Below the pieces are notes generated by a model, which worked only from the letters and a program-made list of their open reading frames with translations, was not told where the DNA came from and searched no databases. Positions 5,008 through 34,332 of a stretch of 34,407 nucleotides of DNA are shown here, in pieces. A program made the translations under genes and the position numbers. Source of the DNA: Bacteroidia bacterium. GTDB lineage: Bacteria; Bacteroidota; Bacteroidia; UKL13-3. Where the stretch lies: the NCBI GenBank assembly GCA_018058165.1, contig JAGPCI010000003.1, positions 1 through 34,407 on the forward strand, given 5' to 3'. Every line of letters begins with the position of its first letter. Positions within the stretch are counted from its first letter, which is position 1.

Positions 5008-5708
5008 TTTTTGAATGAAATTAACTTTACTTTATCCTTTAATATGTCGGGTAGCACCTCAGGGTTTGTTAAATATTTTTTCTGACAAACAGTGTCATAT
5101 GTAGACCATTTTAGCGTATTAATACAAAAACTCCATATATCTTCCTGTAGTTCAATTAGCTCAAGTCGGTTAAAAGTGTCTTCTGAAACTAAGTCTTTCT
5201 TTATTAACGTGCATCCACTGTCATCACAAACAATAATTCCGCCATTTATATGGCGTTTTCTTTTTTCAACTTCTTCGATTATTTCATTACTAGGCGCAAT
5301 ATCTCTATTGTAACATCCTAAAGGAGAATATCCTGTGCACCATATTGGAAACGAGTATTTTTTAATATCAGGAATATCTCTCATTTTTCCTTGAACTACT
5401 ATTCCTTTTACTTTTTTGTATAACAACAAGTACTTGCTTACTAAGTCTCCAAATATTGCCTTGTCTCCACAATTAAATGTATCAACATAAAGCAAGCAGT
5501 TTTCTGGCAACTCCTGAATTTGATCATGTAGAGGCCAATTAGACTCGTCATGAGCATAAACATAGTGAGCTCTTCCAACAACATGCCTTCCCGTATTGAC
5601 TGGTTGTAAATTATTAAGCACACCTGTTTTATCTAGAGCGTCAGCAACTTCTGTACTGCTTATTCTGTTTGATTCTATAAGCTCGATACATTTTTCTGTT
5701 ATATTCAT
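5004..5708 (-). CDS. RraA-family protein (4-hydroxy-4-methyl-2-oxoglutarate aldolase / oxaloacetate decarboxylase-like)
   Basis: A 234-residue protein with the RraA/HMG-aldolase fold signature: SSTEVADALDKTG near 17-29, GDLVSKYLLLYKKVKGIVV at 87-105, the active-site R110-D111 pair in GKMRDIPD, FPIWCTGYSP near 120-129, and the acidic CDDSG turn near 161. In characterised relatives this scaffold performs divalent-metal-dependent retro-aldol or decarboxylation chemistry on pyruvate-derived acids. Enzymatic members retain the G...RD arrangement seen here, favouring an enzyme over a pure RNase E-inhibitor homologue. It sits 4 bp downstream of the amidotransferase gene and overlaps the GT2 by 4 bp. 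RraA proteins are uncommon in capsule clusters. Either making or cleaving a branched hydroxy-acid is possible. Confidence 0.78.
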   Translation of the reverse strand: MNITEKCIELIESNRISSTEVADALDKTGVLNNLQPVNTGRHVVGRAHYVYAHDESNWPLHDQIQELPENCLLYVDTFNCGDKAIFGDLVSKYLLLYKKVKGIVVQGKMRDIPDIKKYSFPIWCTGYSPLGCYNRDIAPSNEIIEEVEKRKRHINGGIIVCDDSGCTLIKKDLVSEDTFNRLELIELQEDIWSFCINTLKWSTYDTVCQKKYLTNPEVLPDILKDKVKLISFKK

Positions 5709-20052: not shown

Positions 20053-20320
20053 AGGAAAATTAAAAATTACGAATTACGAATTGGGGGCTAATTTAAGTTG
20101 ATGATTTTGTTCACCTCAATACTTTTTTTAACCGCAAACTTTGCAAAGAACTAGCTAAGGTCGTGAAGGGATTATGAGTTGTAGAATATTTTACTTCAAC
20201 ATTCAATATTCAAAGTTCAGTATTCATTATTTCTTTTTTGAGAGTCCTAAAATCGAAGAGTTAAACTGCAAAATAAGTCAATCTTCCCCTTTTCGAAACA
20301 ACGTTCAGCGTAGCTAATTT
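20053..20320. repeat. CAAAG-type mosaic repeat, diverged copy, upstream of winged-helix gene
   Basis: Non-coding stretch built from the same blocks seen at 22183-22465, 23055-23345 and 33745-34140, in the same order and orientation: AATTACGAATT-type runs, a degenerate AACCGCAAA...GCAAAGAA block near 20130-20170, ATTCAATATTCA-type runs, then the block ending CAACGTTCAGCGTAGC that precedes repeat A elsewhere. It reaches the start codon of the winged-helix gene. No promoter matching TTTG-N19-TAnnTTTG was found on the minus strand. Confidence 0.7.
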
Positions 20321-21450
20321 TAGATTTCGGATTTTCTCATTATTAATCTTTTTCACTTTGATTAACATGAATGGAAAAGTCAACAACACATTTAACAAAA
20401 ATCTAACTAGGGAAACGCTGCTCCCATGTTAGGGGAGCTCCCCGTACTCGGGGTGAGGGGTAACTTTTGCCACCACCCCGGCTTTGCCACCCCTCCTGCT
20501 AGGCGGGGAGCACTTCCGATTGGTGATTTATCGAACAATAAATTCAAAGTACGAAGCACGAATCTCGAATTTTTTATTCCCTTCAATATTCAATATTCAT
20601 TATTCGATGTTTTCTTAGAATCTAAAAACGTAGCCAAAAGCAACAATGTAAGTCAATCTTCTCCTTTTCGAAACAACGTTCAGCGTAGCTAATTTTAGAT
20701 TTCGAATTTTCTCATTATTAATCTTTTTCACTTTGATTAACATGAATGGAAAAGTCAATAACACATTTAACAAAAATCTAACTAGGGAAACGCTGCACCC
20801 ATATTAGGGGAGCTCCCTGTACTCGGGGTGAGGGGTAACTTTTGCCACCCCTCCTGCTAGGCGGGGAGCACTTCCGATTGGTGATTTATCGAACAATAAA
20901 TTCAAAGTACGAAGCACGAATCTCGAATTTTTTATTCCCTTCAATATTCAATATTCAAAATTTTTTATTCGATGTTTTCTTAGAATCTAAAAACGTAGCC
21001 AAAAGCAACAATGTAAGTCAATCTTCCCCTTTTCGAAACAACGTTCAGCTTAGTTAATTTTAGATTTCGAGTTTTCTCATTATTAATCTTTTTCACTTTG
21101 ATTAACATGAATGGAAAAGTCAACAACACATTTAACAAAAATCTAACTAGGGAAACGCTGCTCCCATGTTAGGGGAGCTCCCCGTACTCGGGGTGAGGGG
21201 TAATTCCACCACCACCCTGGCTTTGCCACCCCTCCTGCTAGGCGGGGCGTACTTCCGATTGGTGATTTATCGAACAATAAATTCAAAGTACGAATCTCGA
21301 ATCTCGAATTTTTTATTCCCTTCAATATTCAAAATTCCGCATTCATTATTCGATGTTTTCTTAGCATCTAAAAACGTAGCCCAAAGCAACAATATAAGTC
21401 AATCTTCTCCTTTTCGAAACAACGTTCAGCGTAGCTAATTTTAGATTTCG
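20321..21450. repeat. Tandem array of three ~375-bp units each containing an A-B hairpin core
   Basis: Three head-to-tail units begin with TAGATTTCG at 20321, 20696 and 21061, and a fourth start appears at 21442, giving periods of 375, 365 and 381 bp. Each unit has an ATTAACATGAATGG stretch, an A core (AAACGCTG...GGGGTGAGGGGTAA) directly joined to a B core (GCCACCCCTCCTGCTAGG...ACTTCCG), and a CAACGTTCAGC end. A-B cores lie at 20413-20518, 20788-20876 and 21153-21257. Units are nearly identical, indicating recent amplification. No convincing gene is present, although a 42-codon minus-strand frame recurs (20615-20743, 20980-21108). The array separates upxY from the downstream operon. Confidence 0.9.
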
Positions 21451-21625: not shown

Positions 21626-22132
21626 TCACAAAATTTCAAGTTGGTTTGATGGTATTTTAAGTAATAGGTGTGCACCTAATTCCTCAATTTGTATGGCGCA
21701 ATATTGGCCACTTTGTTGTTCAAGTATGGTTGCTGTGCGGCCATTTAACGGACCCGCAATTATTTTTACTTGTTGGTTAGGATTAAAAGTTCCTTGTTTT
21801 ACAATGATATCGCTATAGCCCTTAAGACTAAGTTTAATGGTGCAAATTATTTCATCTCTAATAACGGGTACTTCGCCACCAATACGTACAAACTTTACTA
21901 CACCATCTACACCAAGTACTGTTGATCTTTCTCGTTCCAATTCAATACATACAAATACATACGATTTAAATAGGGGTTCTTCTATTTTCTTTTTTCTATC
22001 GCTCCATTGTTTAACAACTGTTTGCAGAGGTAAATACACTGTAGTTCCGAGTGTAGAAAGTTGTTCGGTTACTTTTTTTTCGGCACGTGGGTTTGTATAA
22101 ATTGCGTACCATTTTTTTTCGTGGGTGGTCAT
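21626..22132 (-). CDS. UpxY/NusG-like transcription antitermination protein
   Basis: A 168-residue protein from the ATG at 22130-22132 (MTTHEKKWYAIYTNPRAEKK); an upstream TTG would add 15 residues of doubtful sequence. Residues about 7-105 form a NGN domain (KWYAIYTNPRAEKKV, YLPLQTVVKQWSDRKKKIEEPLFKSYVFV, VVKFVRIGGEVPVI), and residues about 115-165 a KOW-type module (GPLNGRTATILEQQ). This is the NusG-paralogue layout of UpxY/LoaP/RfaH-type factors, which let RNA polymerase read through long polysaccharide operons. It lies before the kds/wzx operon, matching that role. No UpxZ-like partner was found next to it. Confidence 0.87.
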   Translation of the reverse strand: MTTHEKKWYAIYTNPRAEKKVTEQLSTLGTTVYLPLQTVVKQWSDRKKKIEEPLFKSYVFVCIELERERSTVLGVDGVVKFVRIGGEVPVIRDEIICTIKLSLKGYSDIIVKQGTFNPNQQVKIIAGPLNGRTATILEQQSGQYCAIQIEELGAHLLLKIPSNQLEIL

Positions 22133-22182
22133 GAGGCAAAGTAAAGGTTTAATCTTGAAATGTAAAATTGGGAACAATTATA

Positions 22183-23375: not shown

Positions 23376-23691
23376 ACCACCCCGGCTTCGCCACCCCTCC
23401 TAGAAGGAGGGGAGCACTTCCGTTTGGTGAGTTAACTTAAGATTGCAGTTTAAATTGATATGCTTAAATCGGTATTTTTTGACAAACTGAAAGTTAAAGG
23501 AAAACTATAAGCACCTCGGCTTCGCCACCCCTCCTAGAAGGAGGGGAGCACTTCCGTTTGGTGATTTAACTTAAGATTGCAGTTTAAATTGATATGCTTA
23601 AATCGGTATTTTTTGACAAACTGAAAGTTAAAGGAAAACCAACAACCACCCCGGCTTCGCCACCCCTCCTAGAAGGAGGGGAGCACTTCCG
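23376..23691. repeat. Triplicated B hairpin repeat, 134-135 bp period
   Basis: Three B cores (about 23376-23422, 23511-23556, 23644-23691) are joined by two near-identical 88-bp spacers containing ACTTAAGATTGCAGTTTAAA and GACAAACTGAAAGTTAAAGG. Each B core contains GGCTTCGCC and the perfect 8-bp-stem hairpin CCCCTCCTAGAAGGAGGGG, ending AGCACTTCCGTTTGG. No A core is attached to the first two. The array is non-coding and lies on the 3' side of the DUF559 gene. Confidence 0.92.
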
Positions 23692-23794
23692 TTTGGTGAG
23701 TTACTTAAGATTGATAATTTCTTTTTTCAAATGTGTATTTCGTGGTATTTATTCGGGAAGAGGAATTAACATCTCAATAGAAATTTAACTTGGG

Positions 23795-23845
23795 AAACGC
23801 TGCTCCCATGCTAGGGGAGCTCCCCGTACTCGGGGTGAGGGGTAA
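23795..23845. repeat. Repeat A core at the 3' end of the DUF559 gene
   Basis: AAACGCTGCTCCCATGCTAG followed by GGGAGCTCCCCGTACTCGGG and TGAGGGGTAA. Contains GCTCCC/GGGAGC and CCCCG-TACT-CGGGG stems and the self-complementary GGGGAGCTCCCC. The last ten residues and the stop codon of the DUF559 gene are encoded inside this repeat. Confidence 0.9.
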
Positions 23846-24188
23846 AACATTTTTTAATATCGTCCAACACCTGGTCAAGATGCTCAAACACAAATCGATT
23901 TTCAAACCTGATAACCTTAATGCCTTTAGAAGCTAAATCCAAATCGCGTTTTTTATCTTGTTCGATTTTCAAATTGTGTATTCCTCCATCCAATTCAATT
24001 GCAAGTGACTCTTCGTAACAAAAAAAATCAACAATGTAATTGTCTATGCTATGTTGGCGCCTAAATTTTCTTCCAGCTAGCTGCGAATTTTTTAGGCTTT
24101 TCCATAAGGAAGCTTCAGCAGGAGTGCTTTTGTTTCGCAATGCTTTTCGATATGGTAGTAGGTAGGTTTTGTTGTGAGCGGGTTTCAT
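23811..24188 (-). CDS. DUF559-domain (Vsr-like, PD-(D/E)XK fold) endonuclease
   Basis: A 125-residue protein from the ATG at 24186-24188 (MKPAHNKTYLLPYRKALRNK); a TTG further upstream is less likely. The DUF559 signature is complete: TPAEASLWKSLKNSQLAGRKFRRQ, then NYIVDFFCYEESLAIELDGG with the nuclease-like D...ExD residues, IH after it, KRDLDLASKGIKVIRFEN and the C-terminal VLDDIKKCF. The last ten residues (TPHPEYGELP) and the TAG stop come from the A hairpin repeat. A B repeat lies 62 bp upstream. DUF559 belongs to the Vsr/restriction-endonuclease-like superfamily; biological targets are poorly known. The gene is unrelated to polysaccharide synthesis and looks like the cargo of a small repeat-bounded element. 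Confidence 0.88.
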   Translation of the reverse strand: MKPAHNKTYLLPYRKALRNKSTPAEASLWKSLKNSQLAGRKFRRQHSIDNYIVDFFCYEESLAIELDGGIHNLKIEQDKKRDLDLASKGIKVIRFENRFVFEHLDQVLDDIKKCFTPHPEYGELP

Positions 24189-24209
24189 GTGTGAGCTTCT
24201 TTGTATTAA

Positions 24210-24217
24210 CAAATTTA
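24210..24217 (-). promoter_or_regulatory. Putative -7 element for the DUF559 gene
   Basis: On the minus strand the octamer reads TAAATTTG, a match to TAnnTTTG, 21 bp upstream of the chosen ATG. An ATTG 22 bp further upstream is a one-mismatch, slightly long-spaced -33. It lies between the B repeat and the coding region, so the element may carry its own promoter. Confidence 0.35.
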
Positions 24218-24250
24218 AGGAGTATTTACATGAATTGTACAATTTCTGCT

Positions 24251-24297
24251 ACCACCCCGGCTTCGCCACCCCTCCTGCTAGGAGGGGAGCACTTCCG
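24251..24297. repeat. Repeat B core upstream of the DUF559 gene
   Basis: ACCACCCCGGCTTCGCCACC followed by the perfect hairpin CCCCTCCTGCTAGGAGGGG and AGCACTTCCG. The loop (GCT) differs from the AGA loop of the triplicated copies while the 8-bp stem is the same. Confidence 0.9.
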
Positions 24298-24500
24298 TTT
24301 GGAGAGTTGCTTAAGATTGGTAATTTCTATTATGAAGTGTGTATTTCGTGGTATTTATTCGGGAAGAGGAATTAACATCTCAATAGAAATTTAACTTGGG
24401 AAACGCTGCTCCCATGTTAGGGGAGCTCCCCGTACTCGGGGTGAGGGGTAACCTGGCTTCGCCACCCCTCCTGGAAGGCGGGGAGCACTTTCGTTTGGAG
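24298..24500. repeat. Duplicated spacer plus A-B core between DUF559 gene and GT2
   Basis: The about 100 bp after the B core (TGTGTATTTCGTGGTATTTA, then TCGGGAAGAGGAATTAACAT) is a near copy of 23692-23794, and is followed by an A core at 24401-24451 and a shortened B at 24452-24493. The DUF559 unit therefore sits between two directly repeated spacers. The remaining DNA to 24648 has AT-rich filler with ATTCAGTATTCA runs and no gene or clear terminator. Confidence 0.88.
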
Positions 24501-34230: not shown

Positions 34231-34332
34231 AAACGCTGCTCCCATGTTAGGGGAGCTCCCCGTACTCGGGGTGAGGGGTAATTCCACCACCTCGGCTTCG
34301 CCACCCCTCCTGCTAGGCGGGGAGCTCTTCCG
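34231..34332. repeat. A-B hairpin core without gene, right edge
   Basis: AAACGCTGCTCCCATGTTAG through GGGGTGAGGGGTAA (A core), then CCTCGGCTTCGCCACCCCTC through AGCTCTTCCG (B core). Its left flank matches the 375-bp units with scattered substitutions, so it is an older relative of that array. The repeat continues to the end of the window; no gene is seen in 33613-34407. Confidence 0.88.

Follow-up and report, generated by a model that had tools for sequence, protein, structure and literature searches.

The DUF559 gene described here and the two hairpins that border it most likely form a mobile hairpin element of the REPtron/REPIN kind, in which the enzyme is a nuclease of homing-endonuclease fold instead of a Y1 transposase. 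Comparison of sequences establishes the anatomy of the unit, its recurrence in several phyla, gene-less copies with remnants of the gene, its presence or absence at orthologous sites, and its insertion in frame in host genes. DNA cutting and the mechanism of copying are inferred; there are no activity data and no insertion event has been watched.

The window, by which we mean the whole stretch of DNA that was analysed, is an entire contig (C143, 34,407 bp) from a 2.65-Mb MAG that is 81% complete. Its relevant features are the following.

23811..24188, minus strand: DUF559 nuclease gene, ATG start at 24188, 125 aa; PF04480 E 4e-31
23811-24242, minus strand: alternative TTG-start ORF of the DUF559 gene, TTG at 24242
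23795..23845, plus strand: hairpin repeat A, at the gene's 3' end, encoding its last ten codons and stop
24249..24302, plus strand: hairpin repeat B, about 61 nt upstream of the gene's ATG
20413..20523, plus strand: gene-less A-B pair 1
20788..20881, plus strand: gene-less A-B pair 2, with a truncated B that lacks the mini-hairpin and tail
21153..21262, plus strand: gene-less A-B pair 3
24401..24498, plus strand: gene-less A-B pair 4, adjoining the gene-bearing unit
34231..34332, plus strand: gene-less A-B pair 5, just before the contig end
23381..23696, plus strand: three B repeats without A, in tandem units of about 134 bp
23645..23845, plus strand: B-spacer-A module of 201 nt, left of the gene (repeat family D11)

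The preliminary description had placed the last ten codons and stop of the gene inside A, with B 62 bp upstream, and had counted five gene-less A-B pairs of one polarity. These claims held, with B measured at about 61 nt from the ATG, every pair on the plus strand, and the B of pair 2 truncated.

The core of A lies at 23813-23842, and a second copy of the B-spacer-A module, 95% identical to the left one (23645-23845), lies to the right of the gene at 24251-24451. The A and B matches are exact over 26-30 nt, a reversed control pattern gave 0 matches in 2.65 Mb, and shuffled sequences fold less well than the A and B strands do (z -2.8 and -2.1 for the two strands). Thus, the recurrence of A and B is beyond chance. 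No A or B was found outside this contig in the 81%-complete assembly, and the whole assembly contains one DUF559 gene. Because the repeats are confined to this contig and the gene is single, tests had to be made in relatives. The idea that A is a diverged inverted copy of B was tried and is no more than suggestive, as 9 of 500 shuffles reach the score. A known structured RNA was rejected, since an Rfam search of window 20-25 kb matched no family.

Some other observations concern the surroundings of the repeats. The contig breaks (34407) just after an A-B pair, and further copies may have been lost in assembly. A gene for an UpxY-family antiterminator of a polysaccharide locus lies at 21626-22177, between A-B clusters. 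A second repeat family (AACCGCAAAGAACGC...GCGCAAAG), at 20091, 22206, 23076, 33795 and 33928, occupies the same intergenic stretches as A and B, and AATTAAAAATTACGAATT tracts are also found in the intergenic stretches that hold them.

The window gene is intact. An 80%-identical homologue supports the ATG at 24188 as its start, and the protein matches the PF04480 profile with 107.5 bits against a curated cut-off of 20.6. Residues E43, D72, E83, D85 and H89 are invariant among four homologues (the window protein and three others), and the catalytic-type residues are intact. Divergence from the 80%-identical homologue is mostly synonymous (pN 0.12, pS 0.83); thus, the gene is under purifying selection. 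A profile search of the protein matched only DUF559 and the related MTES_1575 nuclease model, and the window unit has no Y1/HUH transposase gene. Foldseek of the AlphaFold model (pLDDT 73, pTM 0.67) returned the solved DUF559 protein 3hrl and the catalytic domain of the homing endonuclease I-Bth0305I (PDB 3r3p, E 1.2e-4); a homing endonuclease of this type is also a weak match in sequence. The protein had been called Vsr-like at first. This is amended here: E. coli Vsr is a weak structural match, and the fold is nearer to I-Bth0305I. A PADLOC defence protein identity was rejected, as PADLOC gave a weak match to a homing-endonuclease model and nothing else.

We searched for DUF559 in 147 relatives and read 60 loci. 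In the closest homologue (80% identity), A-like and B-like hairpins stand at the equivalent positions, and the congener G002 carries gene-less A-B pairs at other loci. We then compared the flanks of 65 free-standing DUF559 genes with those of 265 control ORFs from the same loci. A strong, perfect, GC-rich hairpin was present on both flanks of 29/65 DUF559 genes (45%) versus 2/265 controls (0.8%; p 3e-21), and the 5' flank resembled the inverted 3' flank in 48/65 (74%) versus 11/265 (4%; p 2e-32). By the strict test, about 30% of the free DUF559 genes have no strong hairpin. Y1_Tnp genes of the RAYT/IS200 type from palindrome-rich genomes, used as a positive control, had hairpins on both flanks in 7/18 cases and inverted flanks in 13/18. 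Hairpin arms were all-pyrimidine or all-purine in 60/73 DUF559 hairpins versus 0/20 Y1 hairpins. Thus, DUF559 genes are bordered about as often as Y1/RAYT-type genes, by their own kind of hairpin.

The palindromes also track the gene genome-wide. We counted the pattern CCCCTCYY-loop-RRGAGGGG in the 147 genomes and found 845 copies in the 74 with DUF559 versus 22 in the 73 without. When one genome per family was taken, at least three palindromes were present in 13/29 families with DUF559 versus 1/18 without (p 0.007). The Spearman correlation between palindrome count and DUF559 number was 0.62. Y1_Tnp genes are present in 115 of the 147 genomes; the partial correlation of palindromes with DUF559 given Y1_Tnp was 0.59, and that with Y1_Tnp given DUF559 was -0.02. 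This co-occurrence is correlational, and phylogeny was corrected only crudely. The complete genome G118 contains 11 DUF559 genes and 201 palindromes, and its DUF559 flanks match 105 places across the chromosome.

Gene-less forms and empty sites are found among the relatives. In G118 (869500-870760), a coding unit is lined up with three gene-less ones, and one of these three still has, at its deletion joint, about 35 nt from the end of the DUF559 coding sequence. This gene-less unit is therefore an internal deletion of a coding copy. At one orthologous junction, between genes which we take from our own reading of the translations to be lepA and pyrF, G118 has a 0.5-kb unit where its congener G075 has about 15 bp. 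At another, beside what we likewise take to be mltG, the unit is present in G265 and G118 and there is nothing in G075. No target-site duplication was obvious at these two junctions. We rejected the idea that solo palindromes result when the two hairpins of a unit recombine with each other (arm-hairpin-arm), because the solos of G118 have a single tail and their arms are complementary no more often than those of mismatched controls.

These results bear on the proposal, made in the preliminary description, that A-gene-B is an active unit and A-B its non-autonomous derivatives. The proposal is supported: gene-bearing and gene-less forms occur side by side in relatives, one gene-less copy keeps the gene end, and empty orthologous sites were looked for and exist. 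It could have been refuted by DUF559 genes of the clade without A/B flanks or by A-B pairs abundant in genomes without DUF559. Neither check refuted it, as the clade genes carry equivalent inverted hairpins, and at least three palindromes occur in 2/73 genomes without DUF559 versus 30/74 with it. The suggested analogy to RAYT/REP fits unusually well, with Y1 transposase genes of the same genomes hairpin-flanked at the same rate by a different class of hairpin. The description of an undescribed system here is amended in that the system is not local to this genome, and processing of the hairpins by the nuclease stays an inference.

The unit can also reside inside host proteins. All 16 of the 16 long-frame DUF559 matches first examined proved to be units inserted in LeuRS, MetH or HsdR; on reading them, we rejected helicase fusions as an interpretation. 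Related units were found at LeuRS sites 1 and 2, MetH sites 1 and 2, IleRS and HsdR. A census of 41 LeuRS genes showed that site 1 holds a loop of 23-28 aa in 26 genomes, DUF559 (162-207 aa) in seven genomes plus G118 (8 in total), and a gene-less palindrome in G142. Site 2 holds DUF559 in seven genomes. One LeuRS gene has a gene-less palindrome and DUF559 at its two sites. The insert DNA in LeuRS is ordered tail-hairpin-gene-hairpin-tail; that of G068 has the ends GCCTCACCT...AGGTGAGGC. The reading frame continues through the in-frame copies, on inspection that did not include a scan for intein motifs. Those in LeuRS and MetH belong to a single DUF559 clade, which has moved between these four sites, and the IleRS and HsdR insertions are separate from it. 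A third homologue of the window gene lies in frame inside an isoleucyl-tRNA synthetase (IleRS; L186, G147), flanked by palindromes. The same IleRS carries, in frame and upstream, a gene-less copy that is 94% identical to the left flank of the DUF559 and encodes PHLTSPTGGGTPLPEGGDGRGL. The window copy itself is intergenic, and site 1 of the window genome's own LeuRS is empty. In addition, we observed two frame breaks in the leuS of G118 (L065), a long-read genome, near nt 5150 and at the insert end, which are probably sequencing indels. At locus L226, a DUF559 open frame is joined, by a linker that a palindrome encodes, to a sequence that reads as shikimate kinase.

The gene-plus-hairpins unit recurs across several phyla, as shown by sequence comparison. 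Homologue L057 led us to the genome G148, and we surveyed its relatives: among their 18 free DUF559 genes a hairpin stood at one flank at least in 16 and at both flanks in 11; further DUF559 insertions were found in restriction-methylase genes. On plasmids of Cyanobacteria, Deinococcota and alpha- and gammaproteobacteria, 10/10 DUF559 loci had palindromes on one or both sides by inspection. In E. coli ycjD (L265 1408-1761), the C-terminus RRSPSP and the 3' flank resemble a decayed tail-plus-hairpin (CACCCTCTCCCTGAAAGAGCGAGGGGG); this flank fails the strict hairpin test.

Based on these data, we propose a model in which a small mobile element, about 0.5 kb long, would have the gene and its two hairpins as its coding form. 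The element has at either end a GC-rich hairpin, usually pyrimidine-armed, with a short G-rich tail of the GGGGTG/GGTGAGG type, and the two ends are inverted. The A-B pairs and single hairpins would be gene-less, non-autonomous forms, like REPINs beside a REPtron. The DUF559 protein, whose nuclease activity is itself inferred, may nick or cut the hairpin ends of the element, or hairpins without the gene. Host repair or replication restart may then copy the element or the gene into the break, and loss of the gene would leave A-B. We consider such repair-templated copying likelier than true transposition because a PD-(D/E)XK-like nuclease on its own has no evident means of strand transfer. The sequence does not decide whether DUF559 spreads the hairpins or merely homes into them.

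The alternative that survives best, although we consider it unlikely, is that DUF559 is a parasite resembling a homing endonuclease: the palindromes would arise and spread otherwise, and the gene would invade them by cutting gene-free hairpins and being copied in by repair. In its favour are the fold match to I-Bth0305I, the constant position of the gene between the two hairpins, the fact that one DUF559 clade has occupied the same LeuRS and MetH sites independently, and the LeuRS gene with a palindrome at one site and DUF559 at the other. However, hardly any palindrome-rich genome lacks DUF559, the analysis found no other carrier, and Y1_Tnp does not account for the palindromes.

A second alternative, which we find very hard to support, is that DUF559 serves its host as an ordinary nuclease of repair or restriction and that the hairpins, as terminators or gene-spacing repeats, are nearby by coincidence. 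Caulobacter VsrA, a DUF559 protein that has been studied, is linked to cytosine methylation (PMC12907096), and hairpins at gene ends can terminate transcription. Against this, control ORFs in the same loci have hairpins on both flanks in only 2/265 cases, hairpins are also found on the upstream side of the gene, within coding sequence and throughout the genome, and the unit is inserted in frame in LeuRS and MetH. It remains possible that some DUF559 proteins, VsrA for example, have been domesticated by their hosts.

The last alternative, that the palindromes are REPs moved by RAYT/Y1 transposases with DUF559 genes as passengers, draws on the presence of Y1_Tnp genes, themselves hairpin-flanked, in 115/147 genomes, but it is practically ruled out by the disjoint hairpin classes and the zero partial correlation with Y1, on which we rejected it.

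The mobile-element reading that we prefer has its nearest known counterparts in REPtrons (PMC8266576) and in intragenic REPs and Rickettsia palindromic elements (RPEs; PMC3733652). Like REP/RAYT systems, it has a nuclease gene bordered by inverted hairpins and many gene-less hairpin copies genome-wide, often as inverted dimers, in numbers that track the presence of the gene. Unlike them, it has a PD-(D/E)XK-like nuclease as its enzyme where they have an HUH Y1 transposase, and its hairpins have pyrimidine-rich arms and a GGGGTG-type tail in place of a GTAG tag. By inspection, the stem has no GTAG or CGTC tag; the ends show GGGGTG/GGTGAGG-type tails. Furthermore, the DUF559 gene is multicopy and present or absent between congeners, whereas tnpA-REP is mostly single copy and without evidence of mobility (PMC8266576). 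With EDxHD/Vsr-like homing endonucleases such as I-Bth0305I (PDB 3r3p), the unit shares the fold and insertion into conserved genes, and one DUF559 gene has been called a member of the EDxHD homing-endonuclease family (PMC9403480). In contrast to these, the unit was not observed here within an intron or intein, keeps to the reading frame, and is bounded by hairpins whose gene-less copies lie at many unrelated sites. RPEs and intragenic REPs are likewise palindromes in frame in functional proteins (PMC3733652). Such RPE-like insertion was seen in the relatives (LeuRS, MetH and IleRS) and not in the window copy. No enzyme has been assigned to RPEs, whereas here the gene-bearing form is itself in frame in these three proteins. 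The short gene-less elements with inverted ends, of which one derives from a coding DUF559 copy by internal deletion, recall MITEs, but the unit lacks a transposase of any known class, and no target-site duplication was recognised. We found no link between DUF559 and palindromes in the open-access literature searched; subscription papers and other preprints were outside its scope, and priority is not certain.

A bolder reading, which we judge as likely to be wrong as right, is that DUF559 defines a class of bacterial mobile element apart from transposons, introns and inteins. In this class, a homing-type nuclease gene between inverted hairpins would spread by repair-templated copying, survive as in-frame insertions in essential proteins, and shed gene-less hairpins, which would account for much of the C-rich palindrome content of several phyla. 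For many palindromic repeats of bacteria, in-frame ones among them, no carrier is known, and in one survey the CGTC superfamily of REPs is apparently without a dedicated transposase (PMC3733652). With DUF559, a conserved nuclease family of several phyla and of unknown function, as the marker of one large class of hairpins, those repeats would gain an enzyme that can be tested, and DUF559 would gain a function. The survival of the unit in frame in LeuRS, MetH and IleRS also raises the question of how essential enzymes tolerate a nuclease domain.
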